A stretch of DNA of 64,000 nt from Isosphaeraceae bacterium EP7. GTDB taxonomy: Bacteria > Planctomycetota > Planctomycetia > Isosphaerales > Isosphaeraceae. The translations under genes were made by a program, and so were the position numbers. The notes under the pieces are model-generated. The model did no database searches and was not told the DNA's origin. It saw only the letters and a list, made by a program, of their open reading frames with translations. The stretch spans positions 4,537,174-4,601,173 of the forward strand of contig CP151667.1 of NCBI GenBank assembly GCA_038400315.1, read 5' to 3'. Below, one piece after another: positions 59,936-60,674 of this stretch (the first letter of the stretch is position 1; every line of letters starts with the position of its first letter).

Positions 59936-59974
59936 CGAAACGCAAACGGGCCGTGCATCGAAATGCACGGCCCG
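59936..59974 (-). terminator. Terminator of tRNA copy 1
   Basis: Perfect 12-bp stem (CGGGCCGTGCAT/ATGCACGGCCCG) with CGAA loop at 59947-59974, then a T-rich run (GTTTGCGTTTCG) on the minus strand. It lies 8 bases after the tRNA 3' end. Confidence 0.75.
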
Positions 59975-59982
59975 CTCGCTCA

Positions 59983-60054
59983 TTGCGCCGGCGGGAATTG
60001 AACCCACTGCCTCCAGGTTATGAGCCTGGCGAGCAACCGTTACTCCTCGACGCA
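59983..60054 (-). tRNA. tRNA-Met(CAU)-like, copy 1
   Basis: 72 nt without encoded CCA. The cloverleaf is: 7-bp acceptor stem (UGCGUCG with CGGCGCA, one G:U pair), D stem GAGU/GCUC with loop AACGGUU, anticodon stem CCAGG/CCUGG, anticodon loop CUCAUAA with anticodon CAU, 5-base variable loop AGGCA, T stem GUGGG/CCCGC with loop UUCAAUU, and A73. G2:C71, C3:G70 and A73 fit methionyl-tRNA synthetase recognition. A11:U24 and the CUCAUAA loop are initiator-like, but position 8 is A (not U), position 21 is U (not A), and the anticodon stem has A29:U41 instead of three G:C pairs. A lysidine-modified Ile tRNA is an alternative. Confidence 0.75.
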
Positions 60055-60059
60055 AAGGA

Positions 60060-60087
60060 ATAGTACCAGGGATCGGGGGCACGTCAA
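60060..60087 (-). promoter_or_regulatory. Promoter of tRNA copy 1
   Basis: On the minus strand, TTGACG (60087-60082), 16-base spacer and TACTAT (60065-60060) are 6 bases before the tRNA 5' end. Confidence 0.75.
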
Positions 60088-60217
60088 GAAATACTCCGAA
60101 ACGCCGACCTCGAGAATGTCCGAAGTGACGTCTCTTCCTGATGTTGGATCTGAAGCTTTCTGACTCGAACGCCCCAGGCTTTGATGCATCGGGCGTCTCG
60201 TGTGGGGCGAAACGTTC

Positions 60218-60259
60218 GAAAACGAAAAAGGCCCAAGCGTTGGTCAACGCTTGGGCCTT
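60218..60259 (-). terminator. Terminator of tRNA copy 2
   Basis: A long perfect stem (AAGGCCCAAGCGTTG/CAACGCTTGGGCCTT at 60228-60259), then TTTTTCGTTTTCG on the minus strand: a good intrinsic terminator. Confidence 0.85.
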
Positions 60260-60275
60260 GAAGATCGGATCGAAA

Positions 60276-60347
60276 TTGCGCCGGCGGGAATTGAACCCAC
60301 TGCCTCCAGGTTATGAGCCTGGCGAGCAACCGTTACTCCTCGACGCA
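60276..60347 (-). tRNA. tRNA-Met(CAU)-like, copy 2
   Basis: Identical in all 72 positions to copy 1, including the U:A first pair (T1:A72), the A8 and the A29:U41 anticodon-stem pair. Exact identity over 293 bp shows recent duplication or strong gene conversion. Confidence 0.75.
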
Positions 60348-60352
60348 AAGGA

Positions 60353-60380
60353 ATAGTACCAGGGATCGGGGGCACGTCAA
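60353..60380 (-). promoter_or_regulatory. Promoter of tRNA copy 2
   Basis: Same TTGACG-16-TACTAT as copy 1, at plus 293 bases. Confidence 0.75.
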
Positions 60381-60510
60381 GAAATACTCCGAAACGCCGA
60401 CCTCGAGAATGTCCGAAGTGACGTCTCTTCCTGATGTTGGATCTGAAGCTTTCTGACTCGAACGCCCCAGGCTTTGATGCATCGGGCGTCTCGTGTGGGG
60501 CGAAACGTTC

Positions 60511-60552
60511 GAAAACGAAAAAGGCCCAAGCGTTGGTCAACGCTTGGGCCTT
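60511..60552 (-). terminator. Terminator of tRNA copy 3
   Basis: Identical to the terminator at 60218-60259, with the same T-rich tail. Confidence 0.85.
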
Positions 60553-60568
60553 GAAGATCGGATCGAAA

Positions 60569-60640
60569 TTGCGCCGGCGGGAATTGAACCCACTGCCTCC
60601 AGGTTATGAGCCTGGCGAGCAACCGTTACTCCTCGGCGCA
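60569..60640 (-). tRNA. tRNA-Met(CAU)-like, copy 3
   Basis: Differs from copies 1-2 at one acceptor-stem base: the 5' strand is UGCGCCG, which replaces the G:U pair by C:G and gives seven Watson-Crick pairs. Its upstream promoter also differs, so this is the oldest or independently evolving copy. A stem-preserving change supports functional constraint. Confidence 0.75.
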
Positions 60641-60645
60641 AGGGA

Positions 60646-60674
60646 AGAGTACCAGAGATGGCCGGAGAGGTCAA
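60646..60674 (-). promoter_or_regulatory. Promoter of tRNA copy 3
   Basis: TTGACC (60674-60669), 17-base spacer, TACTCT (60651-60646). The spacer is one base longer than in copies 1-2 and the -10 box differs. Confidence 0.7.

Follow-up and report, generated by a model that had tools for sequence, protein, structure and literature searches.

Tandem initiator tRNA genes with promoters abutting the tRNA 5' end in Isosphaeraceae bacterium EP7, a candidate case of leaderless tRNA-fMet

Why should a bacterium keep three tRNA genes of one kind in a row, each with signals of its own for starting and stopping transcription, and how are the 5' ends of their products made? RNase P is regarded as the enzyme that forms tRNA 5' ends almost everywhere, and the placement of the promoters in this array bears directly on whether it is needed here. 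The array lies near one end of the window, by which is meant the whole 64,000-nucleotide stretch that was analysed. ARAGORN identifies three tRNA-Met(cat) genes in the window, all on the minus strand and spaced at 293 bp; all three pass the Rfam RF00005 cut-off of 29 bits, with scores of 55.5, 55.5 and 57.7, and the 293-bp repeat has a TRF score of 1328. A sequence-only reading had proposed three tandem tRNA(CAU) units at this spacing, each with a 72-nt cloverleaf, and both tRNA searches, the repeat finder and alignment of the units bear this out. The features are as follows.

60669..60674, minus strand: -35 element TTGACC of copy 3, with a 17-nt spacer (sequence)
60646..60651, minus strand: -10 element TACTCT of copy 3, ending 5 nt before nucleotide 1 at 60640 (sequence and alignment)
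60569..60640, minus strand: initiator tRNA-fMet(CAU) copy 3, with U1:A72 and C5:G68 (ARAGORN, 60568-60641; RF00005, 57.7 bits)
60521..60552, minus strand: intrinsic terminator after copy 3 (terminator scan; fold z -7.3)
60375..60380, minus strand: -35 element TTGACG of copy 2, with a 16-nt spacer (promoter/terminator scan)
60353..60358, minus strand: -10 element TACTAT of copy 2, 5 nt before nucleotide 1 at 60347 (promoter/terminator scan)
60276..60347, minus strand: initiator tRNA-fMet(CAU) copy 2 (ARAGORN, 60275-60348; RF00005, 55.5 bits)
60228..60259, minus strand: intrinsic terminator after copy 2, identical to that of copy 3 (alignment, terminator scan, fold)
60082..60087, minus strand: -35 element TTGACG of copy 1 (promoter/terminator scan)
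60060..60065, minus strand: -10 element TACTAT of copy 1, 5 nt before nucleotide 1 at 60054 (promoter/terminator scan)
59983..60054, minus strand: initiator tRNA-fMet(CAU) copy 1 (ARAGORN, 59982-60055; RF00005, 55.5 bits)
59942..59979, minus strand: stable hairpin after copy 1 with a poor T run, a probable terminator (fold -34.2 kcal/mol, z -8.8)
60275..60567, no strand assigned: 293-bp repeat unit B, 100% identical to unit A (alignment)
59982..60274, no strand assigned: 293-bp repeat unit A (alignment)

Units A and B align at 100% identity over 293 bp, and the third, upstream tRNA gene (copy 3, the first in transcription order) has 92 nt in common with the unit at 96% identity. The claim of a recent duplication is supported for these two units, which differ at none of 293 positions. 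Within the tRNA, copy 3 departs from the others at nucleotide 5 only, where U5.G68 becomes C5:G68, the single stem-preserving change that had been described. None of the three genes encodes CCA. The identity of the two units might suggest a single unit duplicated by misassembly; this is very improbable, as the array is internal to a contig of 7.0 Mb in an assembly of five contigs, copy 3 differs from the others, and relatives carry diverged tandem copies of their own.

The tRNAs are of methionine type, as had been supposed, and the D stem, the anticodon stem and loop, and sequence identities identify them more narrowly as genes for initiator tRNA-fMet. They have A11:U24 (GAG...CUC), G30G31:C39C40, CAU in a CUCAUAA loop, and a weak 1:72 pair. 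A pattern search of the genome for CAU tRNAs finds only the three of the array, one of elongator type and a truncated copy of the latter. The elongator CAU tRNA has GCUC...GAGC (C11:G24) and is 59% identical to the window tRNA, which is 82-84% identical to Isosphaeraceae initiators and 73% to the initiator of another Planctomycetia family; D stem and identities together rule out an elongator Met or Ile2 identity. A mobile or phage origin is likewise excluded by the presence of the gene in nearly all Isosphaeraceae genomes. Two positions differ from the usual initiator. Instead of three G:C pairs at 29-31:39-41 the genes have A29:U41, G30:C40 and G31:C39, and since the initiators read from other Planctomycetia families also carry A29:U41, it is a variant of the clade. 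Instead of the lack of a Watson-Crick 1:72 pair (usually C1xA72) they have U1:A72, which is typical of Isosphaeraceae initiator genes and, being a known 1.4% variant in the tabulation of Ardell and Hou (PMC5143459), does not bar them from the initiator class. All three window copies also have A8 in place of the near-universal U8, which relatives retain, and A48 (in our own numbering).

Each gene has its own -35 and -10 elements on the minus strand, TTGACG-16-TACTAT for copies 1 and 2 and TTGACC-17-TACTCT for copy 3, so that the assignment of a separate promoter to each copy, that of copy 3 having diverged, is confirmed; the promoter scan returned 2 promoter-like sites against 0.3 expected. Copies 2 and 3 are followed by the same 14-bp terminator stem with a T run (fold z -7.3). 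The hairpin 3' of copy 1 is different and stronger (z -8.8), its T run is broken (TTTGCGTTTC), and it gave no match in the terminator scan; it is probably a terminator. A stem-loop with a T run had been ascribed to every unit, which is fully true of copies 2 and 3, while copy 1 has the stem-loop with an interrupted run.

The unusual part of the array, passed over in the sequence-only reading, is that the promoters abut the tRNA: the -10 element stands at a fixed distance that would place the start of transcription at the mature 5' end. Among Isosphaeraceae, 62 of 72 initiator genes have a -10 TANNNT at exactly -11 to -6 from tRNA nucleotide 1, and 7 more have it at -12; the copies that depart from this are a minority (L063, L114, L168). 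When upstream regions are aligned on nucleotide 1, the -10 and the -35, with TT conserved at -34/-33, are among the few conserved positions. None of the 51 other tRNAs of the genome shows the arrangement, their -10-like sites lying mainly further upstream. In the other Planctomycetia families it occurs in 2 of 47 initiator genes, these being the only two with U1 (2/2, against 0/45 C1 genes). A further sample, from genus g38 of family f3, has three abutted genes, two U1 and one C1; since some C1 genes abut, U1 is not strictly required. There are also U1 genes without abutment (G055, G111).

The genome encodes RNase P RNA (RF00010, 285.5 bits), so the abutment is not due to loss of the enzyme, and this match together with the 0 of 51 other tRNAs rules out genome-wide leaderless tRNAs of the kind that follow such a loss. 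The presence of RNase P RNA also leaves room for an ordinary leadered tRNA, whose real promoter is some other one (reached by read-through from copy 3, or used by a different sigma factor), whose 5' end is made by RNase P, and whose repeat is merely a recent duplication. The copies do share one orientation with short spacers, and matches to a promoter consensus are by themselves no evidence of function. We consider this account unlikely: terminators separate the copies, the -10 and -35 are conserved across Isosphaeraceae in fixed register with the tRNA, and the same arrangement recurs in Acidobacteriota and Burkholderiales, as described next.

A scan across bacteria, with one genome per species and a query of U1 plus a -10 at -11 that did not include the -35, matched at least 119 stretches in many phyla. 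The matches listed include Acidobacteria, Acidimicrobiia, Nitrospira, Elusimicrobia, Bacteroidota and Janthinobacterium (where two copies stand in tandem), and among these matches a -35 of at least 4/6 lies at 16-18 nt in 62 of the 85 genes read, where chance would give about 11%. When an Acidobacteriota order was sampled regardless of promoter, 83 of 93 initiator genes had the -10 at -11, with TTGAC -35s; nucleotide 1 was U in 61, A in 23, C in 9 and G in none, and 6 of the 61 U1 genes lacked abutment. In the Burkholderiales family of Janthinobacterium, abutment is found in 7 of 7 U1 genes against 11 of 107 C1 genes (Fisher 8e-7, a value that overstates the case because related genes are not independent samples). 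U1 and abutment thus go together in several separate groups, and abutment recurs in unrelated clades. According to the title of a 1995 paper by Meinnel and Blanquet, as cited in PMC5143459, a guanosine of the 5' flanking sequence reportedly directs the maturation of pre-tRNA-fMet by RNase P. Most genes of this Burkholderiales family are C1 and leadered; G stands at -2 in 95 of 96 leadered genes, and the abutted U1 genes lack it, a loss of the -2 guanosine constraint.

We infer from promoter placement that the initiator tRNA of this bacterium is probably leaderless and bypasses RNase P. Three separately transcribed genes would supply tRNA-fMet, RNA polymerase starting each transcript where the mature tRNA begins, on nucleotide 1 or 2; with no 5' leader, RNase P would not be needed for this tRNA, and the cell would keep the enzyme for its other tRNAs. 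The initiator would then carry a 5'-triphosphate. A separate hairpin would terminate each transcript, whose 3' end would then be trimmed and given the CCA that the genes do not encode. A leader of 1-2 nt, from a start just upstream of nucleotide 1, is less probable.

The nearest parallel is in the archaeon Nanoarchaeum equitans, where strict promoter placement makes transcription begin at, or right beside, the mature 5' end and yields leaderless tRNA (PMC10100707, PMC10941002). The likeness is in that placement. N. equitans, however, has no RNase P and all its tRNAs are leaderless, whereas here a bacterium has RNase P RNA and the arrangement is confined, within this genome, to the initiator; moreover, its RNA ends have been measured, while those of the window genes are read from the promoter sequence. 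To our knowledge, the main known case of leaderless tRNAs is that of an archaeon which has lost RNase P, and no description of leaderless bacterial initiator tRNA genes was found in the open-access literature.

The leaderless reading also offers an explanation for a rare class of initiators. Ardell and Hou (2016) counted 66 U1-A72 tRNAs among 4438 bacterial initiators, every initiator with a matched pair being U1-A72, the same rare 1:72 combination as in the window genes; in their discussion of CCA templating and of how poorly RNase P processes C1-A72 precursors, U1 is not linked to the promoter, and the word 'leader' is absent from the text (PMC5143459). In our proposal the C1 to U1 shift would accompany loss of the leader because nucleotide 1 becomes part of the promoter and start region, and U1 may in addition offer a way around the inefficient maturation of C1xA72 precursors by RNase P. 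If this is right, several bacterial lineages have independently removed the initiator tRNA, whose C1xA72 end makes it a poor substrate, from the RNase P pathway while keeping RNase P, and have done so by moving the promoter.

As to which nucleotide is first, the -10 ends 5 nt before nucleotide 1, so a start 6 nt after the -10 would fall on nucleotide 1 and a start at 7 nt on G2. Bacterial RNA polymerase prefers to start about 7 nt after the -10, at a pyrimidine-purine step. In leadered planctomycete initiator promoters the frequency of such steps peaks at position 7 after the -10 (0.51, against mostly 0.1-0.35 over positions 2-9), and C1 genes with abutting promoters have often shifted to a 6-nt spacing. 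The usual preference and the peak at 7 favour G2 over U1 as the start, and the 6-nt spacing of abutted C1 genes lends G2 further support; the commonness of A1 in Acidobacteriota counts against it and fits a start at nucleotide 1 at least as well. That transcription begins at G2, giving a mature initiator tRNA without nucleotide 1, is a tentative suggestion to which we give somewhat less than even weight. Were it true, T1 would be the -1 base of the promoter (a T before G, with G 7 nt after the -10), A72 would always be unpaired, the departure of U1:A72 from the usual initiator end would be moot, and the 'U1-A72 Watson-Crick' initiators of bacteria would in part be an illusion of annotation.

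There remains the question of why there are three copies. In E. coli, initiator tRNA is encoded by metZWV (three copies) and metY, and initiator copy number is tied to the rate and fidelity of initiation (PMC7949028). The window resembles this in having several initiator genes per genome, and differs in that every gene of the array comes with an abutting promoter and a terminator of its own, in that CCA is not encoded, and in that the tRNA has U1:A72 rather than C1xA72 and A29:U41 rather than G29:C41. The array was sought in relatives, as the earlier reading would lead one to do, and tandem initiator copies (2-5 in a span of about 1.1 kb), every one of them preceded by a separate promoter region, are present in at least 17 of 45 Isosphaeraceae genomes; copy number ranges from 1 to 5 and flanks are lineage-specific, the counts being drawn from the matches listed and hence possibly lower bounds. 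Upstream flanks are usually more alike within a genome (similarity mostly 0.55-0.98) than between genomes (mean 0.41), which indicates that the duplications are local and recurrent, and the lineage-specific flanks of these tandem copies likewise point to recurrent amplification. An identical unit B, a diverged first copy and a different last terminator fit unequal crossing-over between tRNA repeats, which may be how the extra copies arose; these copies would raise initiator dosage.

The copies might instead be the product of neutral tandem duplication, with copy number drifting and the extra genes redundant or decaying. The range of 1 to 5 copies among relatives and the altered promoter of copy 3 speak for this, as does the neighbourhood: tblastn with four neighbouring proteins of the window found none within about 4 kb of the relatives' arrays, and a conserved neighbourhood is rejected. 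Neutrality is nonetheless doubtful, if less so than the leadered account, because cloverleaf and promoter are intact in all three copies, tandem copies with promoter regions of their own occur in 17 of 45 Isosphaeraceae genomes, and fidelity of initiation in E. coli depends on several initiator genes (PMC7949028). Of the raised gene dosage that had been suggested, the three gene copies are plain to see, and a rise in expression may follow from them; with leaderless transcripts, initiator supply would depend directly on how strong the promoters are and how many copies the genome has.

Several further observations concern initiator-like genes. Five-copy tandem initiator arrays occur at L083 and L084 (genomes G009 and G026), with a type B tRNA (TAGAGCACCGG..AGGTA) and a strongly conserved promoter core, TTGACA-17-TAATGT-ACGTG. 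At L114 3791-3864 (G031), outside the main array, is a second, diverged initiator-like gene with a C29.A41 mismatch (TGGAGGAACGG) and a D-loop similar to that of the window tRNA. At L079 139-210 (G000:C1:6894638-6894709) is an initiator-like tRNA whose 3GC stem is complete and which has the loop CTAATCC (anticodon AAU) and the T-loop TGCGAAT; a 97% identical copy is found in G040 and an 86% identical one in G037, with otherwise patchy occurrence in Isosphaeraceae, and it is possibly a mobile-element or pseudo-tRNA.

Among other tRNAs, no clear gene for tRNA-Ile2(CAU) or tRNA-Lys(UUU) was found genome-wide, though TilS is encoded; these genes may have been missed or be interrupted by introns, or one of the CAU genes may be Ile2. 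At G000:C1:5595668-5597421 (L068), divergent tRNAs (Cys, Tyr, Ser, Ser and Ile-AAT) are packed closely together, several of them with low Rfam scores, and the group has the look of tRNAs carried by a phage or element. A second copy of the 3' portion of the elongator CAU tRNA stands at a distance of 13.6 kb (G000:C1:6117353-6117395 and 6130936-6131009), the pattern that an integrated element would give at its attachment sites.
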